In this document: positions 30,937 through 37,439 of the stretch, piece after piece | Layout: every line of letters begins with the position of its first letter | Numbering within the stretch: position 1 is the stretch's first letter | From: Opitutus sp. GAS368 | GTDB taxonomy: Bacteria; Verrucomicrobiota; Verrucomicrobiia; Opitutales; Opitutaceae | Assembly (NCBI GenBank): GCA_945874455.1 | Contig: CAMCHO010000014.1 | Coordinates: forward strand, 1-46,595 | Length of the DNA: 46,595 nt | Reading direction: 5' to 3' | Notes under the pieces: generated by a model | What the model was told of the DNA's origin: nothing | The model's input: the letters and a program-made list of their open reading frames with translations, nothing else | The model's database searches: none | Program-made: the position numbers and the translations under genes

Positions 30937-32309
30937 GGAGCGAGGGAGTTTTTCCGCAGTGTTTCCAGCAACTCAAAAAAGTGAGGAAATGTTTTGGCGC
31001 AGCAGGCGGGATTGCGGATCGAAAGCCAGGGGCGGCCATCGCCGTGGAGATCGTGGCAGCCGAGAATGGCGAAGCTCATGGCGAAGCGGTGGTCGCCGTA
31101 GGTCTCGATTTCAAGCGAAGTGGTGGCGGCGCGACGCCGGAGTTCGGCGAGGTTGGGCGTGATCGTGAGGCCGTCTTGGTCTTCGTGCTCGTGGACGTCT
31201 TGGCCAAGCTTGCGAAGTTCGGCGACCATACCAGCGACACGATCGGTCTCTTGTTTTCGCGAGTGAGCGATCCCGGTGATGGTGGTGGGGCCTGCGAGCA
31301 ACGGGGCGAGCGCGGCGAGCGTGAGAAAGGTGTCGGAGAATTCGGAGAAATTCTGAGTGACGCCCCGAAGGACAGAGCCGGGCTGAACCGTGATGTCGAC
31401 GTCACCGTTGAACGGAGCGACTTCGGCCCCGAGGCGCGTGAGGACGTTGAGGAATTGGGAATCGCCCTGGAGGCCGTGGGCGGGCGGGAGTAAGTTGGCG
31501 ATGTGGGTGGTCCCACCTGCGGCGAGTGGGAGGGCGGTAAAATAGCTCGAGGCGGTCGCATCGGGTTCGATGGCGTAGGTGGCGGGCGGGGCGTAGCGGC
31601 CCGCAGGAATCGCAAGGGTATCGCCGGTGCGCGTGAGTTTTTGCGCGAAACCGAACTGAGCCATTTGATTGATCGTCATCGCGACGAAGGGCCAGCGGAC
31701 ACCGCCCACGAGGGTGATTTCGATCGGTGCAGCGGCGTGGGGCGCGACCATGAGGAGGGCGGAGAGGAGTTGGCTGCTCTCGCTGGCGTCGATGGAGACG
31801 GGGCCACCGCAGAGGCCGCGGGCGTGGATCTCGATCGGGAAAAAACCCTCCACGCCCGTGCAGCGGATATCGGAGCCGAGGGTGCGGAGCGCGTCGATGA
31901 GGGGTTTCATCGGGCGCTTACGCATCTGGGGCACGCCATCGAGTCGATAGCTGCCGCCGGGCGCTGCAGCGCAGAGGGCGGTGAGGAAACGGGCGGCGGT
32001 GCCGGCGAGGCCGACGAAGAGGTCGATGGGTGCGGAGTGGGCGGGGAAACCGTTTGCCTGGTCGGAGACGTGGAGCGTATGCGCGGACTCCTCGGCGGTG
32101 ATGGTGACGCCGAGTTTCCGCAGGGCCGCGGCCATCAGATGCGTGTCTTCGCTAAAGAGCGCTCCCGTCAGCGTGACGGGCCGGTCGCAGAGGGCAGCGA
32201 GGAGGAGGGCGCGGTTGGTGAGGCTTTTCGAGCCCGGCAGAGTGACGGTGCCGCGGGCGGGCCGCGTGAAGGGCTGAATGGGTAGATGGTCGGGCAGGAC
32301 GGTCGTCAC
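30933..32309 (-). CDS. aroA: 3-phosphoshikimate 1-carboxyvinyltransferase (EPSP synthase)
   Basis: EPSP synthase, 458 residues, adds enolpyruvate from PEP to shikimate-3-phosphate. The start region has TVTLPGSKSLTNRALLLAAL with Lys28. GVPQMRKRPMKPLIDAL, DASESSQLLSALLM, EPDATASSYFTALP and SRKQETDRVAGMVAELRKLG follow, in family order, with TYGDHRFAMSFAILG near the end. The usual N-A-G-T motif reads GLAGTAARF, a conservative variant of the PEP loop. GTG at 32309 is chosen because it overlaps the tyrA stop (GTGA) and matches the family's N-terminus; longer in-frame starts run antisense-like into tyrA. It may be class II by its sequence style; this was not tested. Confidence 0.93.
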   Translation of the reverse strand: MTTVLPDHLPIQPFTRPARGTVTLPGSKSLTNRALLLAALCDRPVTLTGALFSEDTHLMAAALRKLGVTITAEESAHTLHVSDQANGFPAHSAPIDLFVGLAGTAARFLTALCAAAPGGSYRLDGVPQMRKRPMKPLIDALRTLGSDIRCTGVEGFFPIEIHARGLCGGPVSIDASESSQLLSALLMVAPHAAAPIEITLVGGVRWPFVAMTINQMAQFGFAQKLTRTGDTLAIPAGRYAPPATYAIEPDATASSYFTALPLAAGGTTHIANLLPPAHGLQGDSQFLNVLTRLGAEVAPFNGDVDITVQPGSVLRGVTQNFSEFSDTFLTLAALAPLLAGPTTITGIAHSRKQETDRVAGMVAELRKLGQDVHEHEDQDGLTITPNLAELRRRAATTSLEIETYGDHRFAMSFAILGCHDLHGDGRPWLSIRNPACCAKTFPHFFELLETLRKNSLAP

Positions 32310-33166
32310 GGCAGTGGGCGGAATTGGTCGCGGTAGGCTTTGCCGCGCGAAATACGGGCGGCGACTTCGAAGTAGTCGCGGTTGGCGAGAGCGGCGCGCA
32401 GGCCATGGAGTTCGTCTTCGAAGCCGCTGAGGGCGCGGAGAATCTCGTCGCGATTTTGCTCGAGGATCGCGCGCCAGATTTGTGGGTCGCTGCCGGCGAT
32501 GCGCGTCGTGTCGCGCAGGCCGCCGCCGGCGTGGTGGCGCCACGCGGGATTTTTTGTGGCGAGAAATCCGCAAAGACTGGACGCGATGACTTGAGGCAGG
32601 TGGCTGATGTGCGCGACGATTTCGTCGTGTTGGTCAGGCGCGACCGTCACGACCTCGGCGCCGAGTGCGTGCCAAAATTCGACGACGGTGGCGGTGGCTT
32701 GGGCGGCAGTATCCACGAGCGGAGTGACGAAACAGGTGCGGTGTTCGAACAGGGTTGCGGTGCCGTGTTCCCAGCCGGTTTTCTCGGAGCCGGCCATGGG
32801 GTGCGCGCCGACGAAGTGGGCGTGGGGTGCGAGGGAGGCGTGACCGAGGCGGGAGATTTCGTTTTTCACGCTGCCGACGTCGGTGACGAGCGTGCCGGGG
32901 GCCAGGTCTGGGGCGATTTGACGGGTGAGGGGGACGATCTGGTCCACGGGTGCGGCGATCACGACGAGACTGGCGTGGCGGACGGCATCGCCGGGGGTCT
33001 CCGCGACGGCGTCGCACCACGGTTGCGCGCGAAGTTTGAGCCGTGATTCCGGACGGCGGGTCCACAGCACGATGCGTTGCGCGACGTCGCGCTCGCGCGC
33101 GGCGCGGGCAACGGATCCCCCGAGAAGACCAGGGGCGAGAATCGTGAGCTGAGTGATGGCGGACAC
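32306..33166 (-). CDS. tyrA: Prephenate dehydrogenase
   Basis: TyrA, about 286 residues from a GTG start, oxidatively decarboxylates prephenate to hydroxyphenylpyruvate for tyrosine. The NAD signature is LAPGLLGGSVARAAR (a variant G-x-G-x-x-G, with Pro in place of the first Gly), and VDQIVPLTRQI and VTDVGSVKNEIS follow. The prephenate-site motif FVGAHPMAGSEKTGWEHG is clear. DQHDEIVAHISHLPQVIASSL is the second half. A TTG six codons upstream (33184) is also possible. It heads a run in which tyrA, aroA, cmk and plsC all overlap by 4 bp, linking aromatic synthesis to nucleotide and lipid genes. Confidence 0.9.
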   Translation of the reverse strand: MSAITQLTILAPGLLGGSVARAARERDVAQRIVLWTRRPESRLKLRAQPWCDAVAETPGDAVRHASLVVIAAPVDQIVPLTRQIAPDLAPGTLVTDVGSVKNEISRLGHASLAPHAHFVGAHPMAGSEKTGWEHGTATLFEHRTCFVTPLVDTAAQATATVVEFWHALGAEVVTVAPDQHDEIVAHISHLPQVIASSLCGFLATKNPAWRHHAGGGLRDTTRIAGSDPQIWRAILEQNRDEILRALSGFEDELHGLRAALANRDYFEVAARISRGKAYRDQFRPLP

Positions 33167-33285
33167 GTCTGGCAAAAAACGCAAAATCGCCGGACGGTGT
33201 CGAGCACTTCAAAGGGTGAACGCGTCCGGTGACTACCGATGGACAACGCGTTGCAATTTATCCGCACGAACCTTTGCTCGCGGGA

Positions 33286-35019
33286 ATGCCCTATAAACCG
33301 ACGTGGAAAGACCGCCTCGAAGACGCGGAGCCCTATCTGGGGCCGGCGATCGCGGGTGTGCTCGTATTCGCGCTGGTGGGCTGGTTGGGGTGGCACACGT
33401 TCGGCTCCGAAAAGTCGATGAAGCCACTCGCGGCGCCACCGAAGGAAGCCGTGGACCGACTAGCCGCCATGCGGCGCGTGGCGGGTGAAGCCGACGTGTT
33501 GGAGAAAAATTACCGGCGCGCGCTCGAGGCGGGTGTGCCGGCGGAAACGGCGACAGCGATGCTCAACCGGGCGATCGAAAAGCAGCGCGAGCTCATGCGG
33601 TTGGAGCCGACGGTGAGCACCGAACATGCGGCGAAGCTGGCGGTTTTGGAAGGAGAGCGGGGCTCGCAACGTTCGCGCGGGGCGCTCGCGCGGAGCGCGG
33701 TGTTGGAAAAAGAGGCGCTAGCGGCGCAGCAGGCAGGGCGAGGCGCCGAGGCGAGGGAGAACATGCAGGAGGCGCTGCGACTGCAACGGGAGGCTAACGC
33801 GAACGCGACGAAGGATGAGCTTAAGGATGTGGCGCGCGAGTCGCGACTCGCCCAGGAGGTCTCCGGGGCCGAGGCGGAGCCGTTGCGCGCGGCGGTGGCG
33901 ACGGCCCTGACGCTCGCGCGCTCCGCCATCGCGCAGGAGAAATGGGCGGACGCACAGAACGCCTATTCGGAGGCGAGAAAATCGCAGGCGGAGTTGAACC
34001 TGCGTTTCCCCGCGACGCGGTACGCGGATGTGGCGGCGCTCGACAGGATCGACGGCGAATTGGCGTCGCTGCGGGCGGCGGGACTCGCGTCGCTGGTGAA
34101 GGCGAGGGAGCGGGACGGCGACGCGGCTGCGAAGGCTGGGCGGGCCCAGGAAGCGGCGGCGTCTTACGCGGCCGCAGTGGCGGGGCAGCGGGAGATCAAC
34201 GCGAAATTTTCTAAGAGCCGCTTTACCTCGGAGGCGCGCGCCGAGGATCTGGACGTGCGGCGGCAGACGCTGTTGTCGACGCTGCTGCTAGGACGCGCGG
34301 CGATGATCGACCGGGAGCTGAGTGAGGCGCTGCGCCGTCGGCAGAATTCGGCGGCAGCGGAGAAACTAACTGTGGCGCTAAAGATAGTGGAGACGGTGGC
34401 GGCCGAGTATCCTCTGAGCCGCTCGTTGGATCCGGCCTTGCAGCGGAAGCTGGCCTATCTCGCGCTGAGAATCCGCGACTTGGATACGTTACAGGAGCAG
34501 GTTTTATCGCGGCTCGCTCCGCTACCGGGGACGCCGCGAATCCAGATGCTCACTACGGAAGTGGCGCAGGAGCTTTATGACCGGGTGATGAACGTGAATC
34601 CCAGCCGCCAGGCGGGGCGTGGGTTGCCGGTGGATTCGGTCAGCTGGCACGAGACTCAGGAATTTTGCGAACGCTTGTCGTGGGTGCTCGGACGGCGGGT
34701 GCGGTTGCCGTCGGAGGTGGAGTTTGCCCGGGTGTGGAGTGCGAGCGGGGCCGGCGCATGGTCGGCGGACAATAGCGGGGGACGCAGTCGGGAGACGGGA
34801 AAGTCACCGCCCGCACCGGCGGGGTATTACGACGTGGTGGGAAATCTCGCTGAGTGGCTGCAACCGGCGCTGCCGGTGGGGCCGACGGCGCCCGTGGCCG
34901 GAGGTAGTTATTTGGACTCGGCCGAAGCCTTGAAAATGCTGAAAGTCGGGGCCGTGGAAAAGAGCGACCGCGCCGGGCACATTGGATTTCGCGTGGTGAT
35001 TGAGCCCGCCGCGAATTGA
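33286..35019 (+). CDS. Membrane coiled-coil protein with degenerate SUMF1-like domain
   Basis: A 577-residue protein. A transmembrane segment lies at residues about 18-37 (AIAGVLVFALVGWLGW). Residues 45-420 are Arg/Glu/Ala-rich with helix-forming heptads, a long coiled-coil or helical-repeat region. Residues about 440-577 match the C-terminal part of the formylglycine-generating enzyme (SUMF1/FGE) fold: LPVDSVSWHETQEFCERLSW, RVRLPSEVEFARVW, YYDVVGNLAEWL, VAGGSYLDSAEAL and HIGFRVV. The segment that holds the two catalytic Cys in FGE has none, so it is unlikely to mature sulfatases. The ATG at 33286 is chosen for sense; a GTG at 33229 would add 19 residues. It is divergent from tyrA. Confidence 0.75.
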   Translation: MPYKPTWKDRLEDAEPYLGPAIAGVLVFALVGWLGWHTFGSEKSMKPLAAPPKEAVDRLAAMRRVAGEADVLEKNYRRALEAGVPAETATAMLNRAIEKQRELMRLEPTVSTEHAAKLAVLEGERGSQRSRGALARSAVLEKEALAAQQAGRGAEARENMQEALRLQREANANATKDELKDVARESRLAQEVSGAEAEPLRAAVATALTLARSAIAQEKWADAQNAYSEARKSQAELNLRFPATRYADVAALDRIDGELASLRAAGLASLVKARERDGDAAAKAGRAQEAAASYAAAVAGQREINAKFSKSRFTSEARAEDLDVRRQTLLSTLLLGRAAMIDRELSEALRRRQNSAAAEKLTVALKIVETVAAEYPLSRSLDPALQRKLAYLALRIRDLDTLQEQVLSRLAPLPGTPRIQMLTTEVAQELYDRVMNVNPSRQAGRGLPVDSVSWHETQEFCERLSWVLGRRVRLPSEVEFARVWSASGAGAWSADNSGGRSRETGKSPPAPAGYYDVVGNLAEWLQPALPVGPTAPVAGGSYLDSAEALKMLKVGAVEKSDRAGHIGFRVVIEPAAN

Positions 35020-35079: not shown

Positions 35080-35508
35080 CTACGCACCGAGTGCGGCAAT
35101 GAGCGTAAATTCTTCGTGACTCAATGGGAGCACGGAGAGGCGGCTTTGCCGGAGGAGGGCGATATTGGCGAGGGCCGGCTCGGCTTTGATTTGGGCGAGC
35201 GTGACGGGGCGAGCGAGCGCACTGATGGCTTTGAGTTCGACGGCAACCCAACCGGGCTCCTCGGCGGTGGTGTCGGCAAACGCGGAGCGCGTAACCTCGG
35301 TGAGACCGACGACGGCTTTGGTGGTAACGCTCTCGTAGAAAAACACACGGTCACCGGGCTGCATCGTGTTCAGATGGATACGCGCTTGGTAGTTGCGGAC
35401 GCCGGTCCAAGCGGTGCGGCCATCGCGGACGAGGTCGATCCACGCGTAGGCTTCGGGTTCGGATTTTACGAGCCAGTGTTGAAGGAGGGTGTTTTTCTTT
35501 GGTTTCAT
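35080..35508 (-). CDS. EVE domain protein
   Basis: A 142-residue protein of the EVE (PUA/YTH-like) family. WLVKSEPEAYAWIDLVRDG is the N-terminal signature (12-30), WTGVRNYQARIHLNTMQPGD carries the aromatic-cage region, and RVFFYES plus VVGLTEVTRSAF complete it. EVE proteins recognise modified bases; bacterial members often sit near tRNA or DNA-modification functions, but here there is no such neighbour. Length is normal (about 140-155). The ATG at 35508 overlaps by 4 bp (ATGA) the end of an open minus-strand frame to its right, which may be a remnant of an upstream gene. Confidence 0.9.
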   Translation of the reverse strand: MKPKKNTLLQHWLVKSEPEAYAWIDLVRDGRTAWTGVRNYQARIHLNTMQPGDRVFFYESVTTKAVVGLTEVTRSAFADTTAEEPGWVAVELKAISALARPVTLAQIKAEPALANIALLRQSRLSVLPLSHEEFTLIAALGA

Positions 35509-36055
35509 AGTGCAGGAAAATGAGTGCCAGCGAAACGCGCTAAGCAAACGGGAGTCGTCGCCAGTCCAGCCGGCTTGATGGTACCGGCGGGCGGGCGCCA
35601 GCGCAAATCACCTAAAAAAAGTGCGAGATCTTCCGGGTTGCGAGCGAGAATGAGCCAAACGGAACGGGCGTTGCTGCGGGCGGCTGCGGCCGAGGAGATA
35701 ACGGGGGCGGTGGTAGCGCACCCGCCGAGGCGCGCGGTGCACCGGTGAGCTTAGGCGTAACCGGCGAGCAGCGGCGCTTGGTGAAAAACTATGGCGGTGT
35801 TCCAAGCTTAAGGTGAGCCCCGCGGCGAGGACGCGCGAGGCGCGCGAACATCGGCTGCACCAGAAAGGGCAGCGCTTTACTGAAAAAAGAGCGGCGGAAT
35901 CAAGCGTTACTATGAGGGGCCGCGTCGTGTTTGATGCTGGCGGCGGCACTCAGCAAGGCGGAGCGGGCGCCAATAGATTTCCAACGAGCGAAAGGATTCG
36001 TGCGGCTGGTAGTATTACGTTGTCATGCGCAGCCACCCTTGGTGCGCTGACGGAA
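35509..36055. other. Gap with an unidentified minus-strand protein-like frame
   Basis: The minus strand from 35750 to 35505 is open for 82 codons and reads like protein (for example VWLILARNPEDLALFLGDLR), ending in a TGA that overlaps the EVE ATG. It has no ATG, GTG or TTG near its beginning and is closed by an in-frame TAA at 35751-35753, so it could be the 3' end of a broken gene. I do not recognise the family. In the remaining 300 bases I see nothing convincing. Confidence 0.4.
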
Positions 36056-36172: not shown

Positions 36173-36203
36173 GCCGCGTGGCGTGTCGCACGACGTGGAT
36201 GAG

Positions 36204-36650
36204 TCGCTCGTTGTCGTGGACACGACTGTGCTGACCAATGGACGAATCGCGCGGGTGTGCGAGGCCGGGCTCCTGAGCAGCGTGCGGGCGATTCCCCGGC
36301 TAAGTCGGTGTTCCTTGCGCAATCGATCCGCGCGAAGCTGCTGACGACAGACTCCCCTCTCGCGAAGGAGGCGGAGTTGCCTGGAGTGATCTAGTCGAAC
36401 CTCAACCTGCGCGCGAAGTCGTTGCGCCAGGAATTGATGATCGGCGAGCGCGTTGAGCTTGATCTGGTGAAACCGGGCAAAGAGGAAGTGCCGCCCGGGG
36501 GATTTCTGGCGGATGGCGCGATCGTGTTCGTGAGCGGGGGGGCGCGCATACAACGGTCGGCGCGTCCAGGTGGAAACTATCCGCGTTACCGACTGCGGGC
36601 GGAAAAATTGGTGTTTACTTGCGTCGCGCGTTTTCCCAATACCAAACACT
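36204..36650 (+). pseudogene. Relic of a PIN/TRAM-domain (YacL-type) gene
   Basis: Three frames together reproduce a YacL-like PIN-TRAM protein. First, VVDTTVLTNGRIARVCEAGL (PIN start, usual V-x-D-T-S-x-x-x-D-G-R-I). Then, after a deletion of most of the PIN domain and a shift near 36300: AKLLTTDSPLAKEAELPGV, which ends in an in-frame TAG at 36392-36394. The frame continues SLRQELMIGERVELDLVKPG and GFLADGAIVFVSGG, matching the PIN end and the TRAM start. A last shift near 36550 gives GRRVQVETIRVTDCGRK, the TRAM end. At least three lesions mean it is dead. It ends just before tRNA-Ala. Confidence 0.85.
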
Positions 36651-36992: not shown

Positions 36993-37439
36993 ATGAAAAA
37001 GAATGCCTCCAAATCTGCCGCCAAGTCGCCCGCCCTGGCGACGAAGGTTGCTCCTGTTAGGGTGAACGTGGCCGTCGCGGCTCGTAAAGCTGTGCCGGCT
37101 CTCAAGCCCGCCAAGCCCGTGGCCAAGAAGAAGCCCGCCGCGCGCACCGCTGCACCGGCGGTCAAAGTCGTGGCGGCCAAGGCCGTCGTTGCGACGATCA
37201 CGGCACAGATCGACATCGGCTTCGGCAACGCGCTCTACGTGCGTGGCGAGGGTGCGGGGCTGAGCTGGGACCAAGGACTCCTGATGAACTGTGTGAGCAA
37301 CAGCGAATGGCAATGTGTGCTGGGCGAGTCCGCGCGACCCATCGTCTTCAAGTTTCTCGTCAACGACCTGAGCTGGAGTACGGGGGAAGATTTCTCCGTC
37401 ACGCCGGGCACGAACGTGACGCTCACGCCGACGTTCTAA
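36993..37439 (+). CDS. Histone-tail-like protein with carbohydrate-binding-like C-domain
   Basis: A 148-residue protein with two parts. Residues 1-65 are almost only Lys, Ala, Pro and Val (PAKPVAKKKPAARTAAPAVK), like a histone H1 C-terminal tail. Residues 67-148 form a predicted beta-sandwich: ATITAQIDIGFGNALYVRGE, GLSWDQG, WQCVLGE, IVFKFLVNDLSWSTGED and an ending TPTF, in the style of CBM20/CBM48-like starch-binding modules seen in verrucomicrobial proteins. There is no signal peptide. The fusion might bind nucleic acid through the tail and a glycan or nothing through the sandwich; the function is unknown. The stop codon overlaps a small hairpin with a T run. Confidence 0.75.
   Translation: MKKNASKSAAKSPALATKVAPVRVNVAVAARKAVPALKPAKPVAKKKPAARTAAPAVKVVAAKAVVATITAQIDIGFGNALYVRGEGAGLSWDQGLLMNCVSNSEWQCVLGESARPIVFKFLVNDLSWSTGEDFSVTPGTNVTLTPTF

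Follow-up and report, generated by a model that had tools for sequence, protein, structure and literature searches.

A membrane-anchored helical-repeat protein of Opitutales with an FGE-like head that lacks the active-site cysteines

RESULTS

Locus and protein architecture

The gene studied here lies in a 46,595-nucleotide stretch of Opitutus sp. GAS368 DNA (the window, meaning the whole stretch that was analyzed), between a tyrA gene that diverges from it and an EVE-domain gene that converges on it (Table 1). It encodes 577 amino acids (aa) from an ATG common to close relatives; translation could also begin at an in-frame GTG farther upstream, at 33229. From the N terminus, the protein consists of a transmembrane helix, ~360 helical residues, and a C-terminal domain resembling the formylglycine-generating enzyme (FGE) or SUMF1. 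The initial annotation, made from the sequence alone, had read the product as an FGE-like domain on a membrane coiled-coil protein, and the observation is confirmed, with corrections. The FGE-like motifs are present in the 577-aa protein, which scores above the PF03781 cutoff, and a hydropathy peak at residues 18 to 36 agrees with the transmembrane helix. The ~380 residues called helical are indeed helical, but they are not plain helix, being organized as five regular 67-residue repeats. The coiled-coil label is less apt than TPR-like repeats, given the sequence periodicity and the comparison of the family profile to TPR proteins.

Table 1. Features of the gene, its product, and its immediate neighbors
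Feature	Position in window	Strand	Basis or remark
tyrA (prephenate dehydrogenase), divergent neighbor	32306..33184	-	Pfam; synteny; 19/27 relatives' loci
Anchored repeat/FGE-like protein, 577 aa	33286..35019	+	dN/dS 0.20-0.30 versus six relatives
Transmembrane helix, residues about 18-36	33337..33393	+	Kyte-Doolittle peak; model helix 7-39
Helical repeat 1, residues 86-152	33541..33741	+	67-residue period
Helical repeat 2, residues 153-219	33742..33942	+	67-residue period
Helical repeat 3, residues 220-286	33943..34143	+	67-residue period
Helical repeat 4, residues 287-353	34144..34344	+	67-residue period
Helical repeat 5, residues 354-410 (model: two short helices replace the second)	34345..34515	+	
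C-terminal FGE/SUMF1-like (C-type lectin) domain as modeled, residues 400-577	34483..35016	+	PF03781; model
D544 codon, place of first FGE active-site Cys	34915..34917	+	Alignment with own-genome FGE
L549 codon, place of second FGE active-site Cys	34930..34932	+	Alignment with own-genome FGE
EVE-domain gene, convergent neighbor	35080..35547	-	Pfam; synteny; 11/27 relatives' loci

Thirty sequences were gathered, and the alignment has 26 rows, comprising the window copy (L008) and 25 relatives. Left out were L014, which is cut by a contig end, L024 and L026, which carry an in-frame stop, and L027, an open copy with a shorter loop. The named relatives are metagenome-assembled genomes deposited as Opitutus sp., Opitutae bacterium, or Verrucomicrobia bacterium. 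The gene is under purifying selection, with dN/dS against six relatives of 0.20 to 0.36 in the repeats and 0.15 to 0.32 in the head. Two candidate readings were discarded: a decayed gene, on the overall dN/dS values, and an anti-phage defense protein, as the product matched none of the PADLOC-DB families at an E value of 0.1.

The helical arm

In the AlphaFold2 model, built from five close sequences, there are 21-residue helices at residues 86, 153, 220, 287, and 354, that is, with a period of 67, and repeats 1 to 4 have a second helix of 35 to 38 residues. The full-length model had a mean pLDDT of 68.5 and a pTM of 0.41, with the head mostly below a pLDDT of 50; across residues 81 to 380, ten-residue pLDDT means were between 77 and 94 in 28 of 30 blocks. 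Independently of the model, self-comparison of the 26-row profile over residues 81 to 405 peaked at offsets of 67 (0.29) and 134 (0.10), which lie 7.6 and 5.9 standard deviations (SD) from the background (mean, -0.60; SD, 0.12; offsets 20 to 159).

The family profile matched consensus TPR proteins in the PDB (8bu0 at 1.1e-7, with no single stretch passing alone, and 2fo7 at 3.6e-5), and Pfam TPR models applied to the single sequence stayed below their cutoffs (TPR_18 at an E value of 0.12). The repeat unit is about twice the length of a TPR (67 residues, not 34). A Foldseek search with the full-length model returned nothing at an E value of 0.001 or lower, the best matches (2.2e-3) being TPR and other helical proteins. 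In VIA-align, the arm matched designed helical repeats, BamD, and other structures with Z scores of 8 to 11, perhaps through a common arrangement alone. The BamD chains (Z of 8.5 to 9.5 over 127 to 138 residues) share TPR-like helical hairpins with the arm, whereas the 67-residue period and the 35- to 38-residue helix set it apart from BamD and TPR proteins. A replacement for BamD was also considered and rejected, as the genome has a separate YfiO/BamD match.

The FGE-like head

Residues 424 to 571 matched PF03781 with 40.3 bits (cutoff, 23.3; E value, 3.9e-10), covering profile positions 68 to 254 of 255 and leaving the first profile quarter unmatched. The C-domain profile, compared with PDB sequences, found TvpA best (1.2e-20), followed by 5aoh (1.4e-11), chains named PorK (1.5e-8), SUMF2 (1.3e-6), and human FGE (0.005).

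For the structure of the head (residues 400 to 577), we aligned the window sequence, those of four relatives, and 24 SUMF1-like domains encoded on viral contigs of IMG/VR, picked from 47 distinct ones; a scan of viral contigs with the family's own C-domain yielded one weak locus. The resulting model was confident (pLDDT, 89.7; pTM, 0.89), and the viral-contig rows may have pulled it toward the known fold, while the sequence evidence is independent of them. In VIA-align, the nearest structure was TvpA (Z of 22.4 over 174 residues, 2.2 Å), followed by CarF (21.4), PvdO (20.2), PorK (18.5 over 174 residues, 3.0 Å), CalU17 (18.4), the catalytic FGEs (16.7 to 17.6), and SUMF2 (16.7); PvdO, CarF, EgtB, and OvoA were among the fold matches with Z scores between 13.5 and 21.4. 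The four PorK entries scored 18.5, 18.2, 17.8, and 13.8, and with differences under 1 taken as ties, PorK and FGE are tied. Foldseek likewise ranked TvpA first, then PvdO and CarF, and put human FGE (1.3e-7) above PorK (6.5e-7). Structure prediction thus recovers an FGE fold, and the head is predicted to be a compact version of it, nearer TvpA, CarF, and PvdO than FGE itself. Because PorK is tied with FGE by one method and falls below it by the other, the fold by itself does not single out a docking use.

The initial annotation had reported that the domain lacks the catalytic cysteines, and this is borne out. The active-site cysteines of the genome's own FGE (L001) align with D544 and L549, its GGSYLCHASYC corresponding to GGSYLDSAEAL in the studied protein, whose sole cysteine is C461, in the motif EFC. 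None of the 26 intact copies has a cysteine between GGS and GFR; the first cysteine position is Asp in 21 and the second Leu in 18. L026, outside the alignment, also lacks a cysteine in that stretch, and the GGS-GFR pattern matched no stretch in L014, L024, or L027. With both active-site cysteines replaced, we rejected identification of the protein as a true FGE. The invariant residues of the head are E425, Q428, P439, S440, V449, F460, W466, L474, and P475, together with G513, G519, N520, E523, G539, G540, G567, and R569.

Absence of the cysteine pair from such SUMF1-like domains is not rare, and it is seen in the same genome in L002, L003, and L005. Contig C72 of this genome (L002, L003, and L004) encodes large proteins with SUMF1-like domains, two of them in one protein, that lack the FGE cysteine pair; the stretches beside these domains resemble Ig or fibronectin domains in appearance.

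Proximity to sulfatases

Three sulfatases lie nearby, as had been noted, the first starting 2.7 kb downstream, and all three carry C-x-P-x-R. The suggestion that the protein probably cannot mature them is supported: the active-site cysteines are missing from all 26 copies, and a true FGE is encoded elsewhere in the genome (G000:C43:17392-18240). The link to sulfatases that the location implied is not supported. The 5.07-Mb genome contains 130 stretches matching PF00884, and 2.7 kb on each side of these would amount to ~14% of the genome if all were isolated, so closeness to sulfatases is weak evidence. The three sulfatases had no match at an E value of 1e-3 in the loci of 27 relatives, 21 of which reach at least 5 kb downstream.

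Across the order, presence of the gene is uncoupled from that of sulfatases. At least eight genomes that carry the gene, all of them listed, have no PF00884 match at 1e-10 (G044, G045, G051, G071, G090, G118, G135, and G139), and six more follow by elimination from the listed positives (G142, G146, G160, G172, G185, and G213). Conversely, G193, G206, G210, and G238 are among the sulfatase-rich genomes without a full-length gene. As the genomes compared are 90 to 100% complete, any one absence may reflect a gap, which does not hold for the pattern. The proximity to sulfatases looks accidental.

Distribution and gene neighborhood

The 26-row profile matched 186 of 233 genomes of the order (each at least 90% complete) at 1e-10, with part of the matches covering the protein incompletely, at contig ends. 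Counted by hand, the full-length family occurs in 145 of them (best E value of 4.5e-56 or lower), a set clearly separated from 4.9e-36, the lowest E value listed for a match confined to the SUMF1 domain. These carriers comprise 30 of the 73 genomes of the window's own family and 115 of the 160 from other families. In a search of 286 genomes of the class, the matches listed outside the order covered the SUMF1 domain only (model positions about 407 to 582), and a repeat-only profile at 1e-5 matched 51 of 383 genomes of the phylum, all 51 in the order. By these searches, we regard the proteins as an orphan family sharply limited to one order. The gene is missing from many genomes of its own family, and its role is thus dispensable.

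Beyond tyrA, the loci of the 27 relatives contain aroA (16 loci), cmk (15), and plsC (13), and synteny on the tyrA side holds down to relatives with 24 to 32% identity. The families common to at least 4 of the 27 loci are tyrA, aroA/cmk, plsC, trpS, EVE, hexapeptide-repeat, and PIN-domain genes, as well as a small cluster, C8. We also looked for empty sites in 20 of the 88 genomes of the order without a full-length gene, 19 of which gave tyrA. EVE directly adjoins tyrA in 11 of these 19 loci, and in 18 of the 19 the 1.6 kb examined contains no remnant. With EVE beside tyrA and hardly any remnants, the gene is evidently gained and lost as one unit.

Two further loci deserve mention. Upstream of tyrA in G067, at the usual place, there is a strongly diverged N-terminal match (L167, 56.9 bits), and two genomes of the same genus, G095 and G106, have full-length matches. 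The copy on contig C22 of G029 (L024 and L066) looks decayed, with a split match and three stops inside it, which fits lineage-wise loss in the window's own family.

DISCUSSION

Resemblance to known FGE-fold proteins

PorK of the type 9 secretion system (T9SS) is the structural precedent that we consider closest in kind. As published, PorK is an FGE fold without catalytic cysteines that acts as a docking hub, binding PorN via variable regions of the former substrate groove, and it has large insertions within the fold (PMC12421860). The studied protein shares with PorK/GldK, components of the T9SS ring, the fold and the lack of catalytic cysteines; unlike them, it has a transmembrane anchor and an N-terminal TPR-like arm, and it scores 12.3 bits against the GldK model TIGR03525, whose cutoff is 350. 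PorK and GldK carry a lipoprotein signal with its cysteine; no such cysteine was found in the studied protein, where C461 is the only one.

TvpA of Treponema denticola (2y3c), the variable protein of a diversity-generating retroelement (DGR), is the nearest match of the head, and it differs in its N-terminal architecture and in that dN/dS gives no sign of hypervariation in the head studied here. SUMF2, or pFGE (1y4j), is an FGE paralogue without the full catalytic pair and a soluble secretory-pathway protein. It too resembles the head in profile and fold, whereas the studied gene shows no coupling to sulfatases. With true FGE, the head has the fold and core motifs in common and differs at the active-site stretch and in a PF03781 match that begins only at profile position 68. 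Among the titles listed in literature searches, none names an FGE-like or SUMF1 protein of Opitutales, which does not imply absence from print.

A candidate docking protein and the alternatives

Our preferred reading, which we advance tentatively, is that the protein, anchored in the membrane and probably periplasmic, serves for docking or binding and, like PorK, uses a repurposed FGE fold. A single-pass anchor holds the protein in the membrane, and the five 67-residue TPR-like repeats form a helical arm, as both periodicity and model show. This arm carries a compact head of FGE fold from which the copper-binding cysteines are missing, as shown by the sequence and by a confident model. With arm and head in the periplasm, the groove of the head, in FGE the site for the sulfatase peptide, would be where a protein or glycan partner docks, and the arm would bind a second partner or set a distance. 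The gene is gained or lost whole, is passed on chiefly within a single order of Verrucomicrobiota, and does not take part in sulfatase maturation.

The side of the membrane on which the arm and head lie is the point at which the nearest competitor departs from this. The same architecture might face the cytoplasm, the protein being a TPR adaptor tethered to the membrane with a head that docks proteins of the cytoplasm, which we consider unlikely. The hydrophobic anchor has only about 17 residues before the membrane helix, and flank charges are equivocal: counting Lys and Arg in the 15-residue flanks of 26 rows (without L014, L024, L026, and L034), an N-inside orientation was favored in 13. The window's own protein, with a net charge of -1 before the helix and +1 after it, goes against N-inside and so slightly favors a cytoplasmic C terminus; its single cysteine, which allows no disulfide pair, is compatible with either side, and there are FGE-fold proteins of the cytoplasm, namely, EgtB and OvoA. 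Against this, among nine copies from other families (L028 to L037 without L034), the N-side net charge is higher in seven and Lys plus Arg more numerous in five, and PorK is a periplasmic protein located at the outer membrane (PMC12421860). We infer that the arm and head are most likely periplasmic, the flank charges being equivocal.

The initial annotation had offered a sensor or a scaffold. The scaffold is favored, with PorK as its structural precedent, while the sensor is less likely, as Pfam found no signaling domain. As an extracytoplasmic sensor, the protein would bind a small ligand or glycan with its C-type-lectin-like head and signal through the membrane helix. TvpA, the nearest match of the head in both sequence and fold, is a variable protein with a presumed ligand-binding function, and a transmembrane anchor is present; the stretch before the helix is short, Pfam detects no output domain, and no regulator is found among the named gene families common to at least 4 of the 27 loci. 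All in all, we think a sensor rather improbable.

A more ambitious version of the docking idea, to which we give only a slim chance, would make this protein the founding member of an envelope machine peculiar to one order of Verrucomicrobiota. Membrane-anchored TPR-like arms would build a multimeric scaffold, with the repurposed FGE heads forming or holding an assembly in the periplasm, and the machine would have evolved independently of the PorK/GldK ring of Bacteroidota.

An enzyme of other chemistry, working with other residues of the FGE fold as PvdO, EgtB, or OvoA do, has a slimmer chance still. The fold matches to these proteins and to CarF, and the retention of D544 in most copies, are in its favor, but in our view the invariant residues of the head resemble a core common to the fold at large, and Pfam found no second catalytic domain.

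It is very improbable that the protein regulates or chaperones sulfatase maturation as SUMF2 does for SUMF1. The three C-x-P-x-R sulfatases nearby, the true FGE in the genome, and the higher score of SUMF2 than of SUMF1 with the C-domain profile would suit such a role, which is opposed by the loci where these sulfatases are unmatched, by carriers without PF00884, and by sulfatase-rich noncarriers. Least credible of all is a DGR target, whose sole recommendation is TvpA as nearest solved structure, since the dN/dS of the head exceeds that of the repeats in three of six comparisons and falls below it in the other three, hence not the consistent excess of a hypervariable domain, and the genome's only RVT_1 match is on contig C328, not on the window's C14.

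What deserves attention in this protein is how it is built and how sharply it is confined to one order. The family adds a well-bounded, order-specific case to the FGE folds turned from enzyme to binding or docking part, and we found no described family for the combination of a membrane anchor with a regular 67-residue TPR-like arm. It also illustrates that proximity to sulfatases, like a "sulfatase-modifying" label, can be misleading. Since it is one gene and is naturally missing from some related genomes at the genus level, it would allow direct deletion and partner tests in a culturable member.

Two further elements of the neighborhood were noted. At about 36177 to 36587 on the plus strand, the window contains what is left of a gene for a PIN-domain membrane protein (matches to PIN and, weakly, TRAM). 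It is broken up over two frames, is interrupted by at least one stop, and is about 60 to 64% identical to L046:6031-7041. Longer copies of this gene are found near the studied gene in 14 of the 27 relatives' loci; decayed as it is in the window, it is not a likely partner. A 148-aa open reading frame at 36993 to 37439 (plus strand), with a Lys/Ala-rich N-terminal half, has no Pfam match at an E value of 1; its C-terminal half resembles a starch-binding-like domain. In L046, L047, and L048, counterparts of this reading frame (64 to 78%) are found close to the studied gene.
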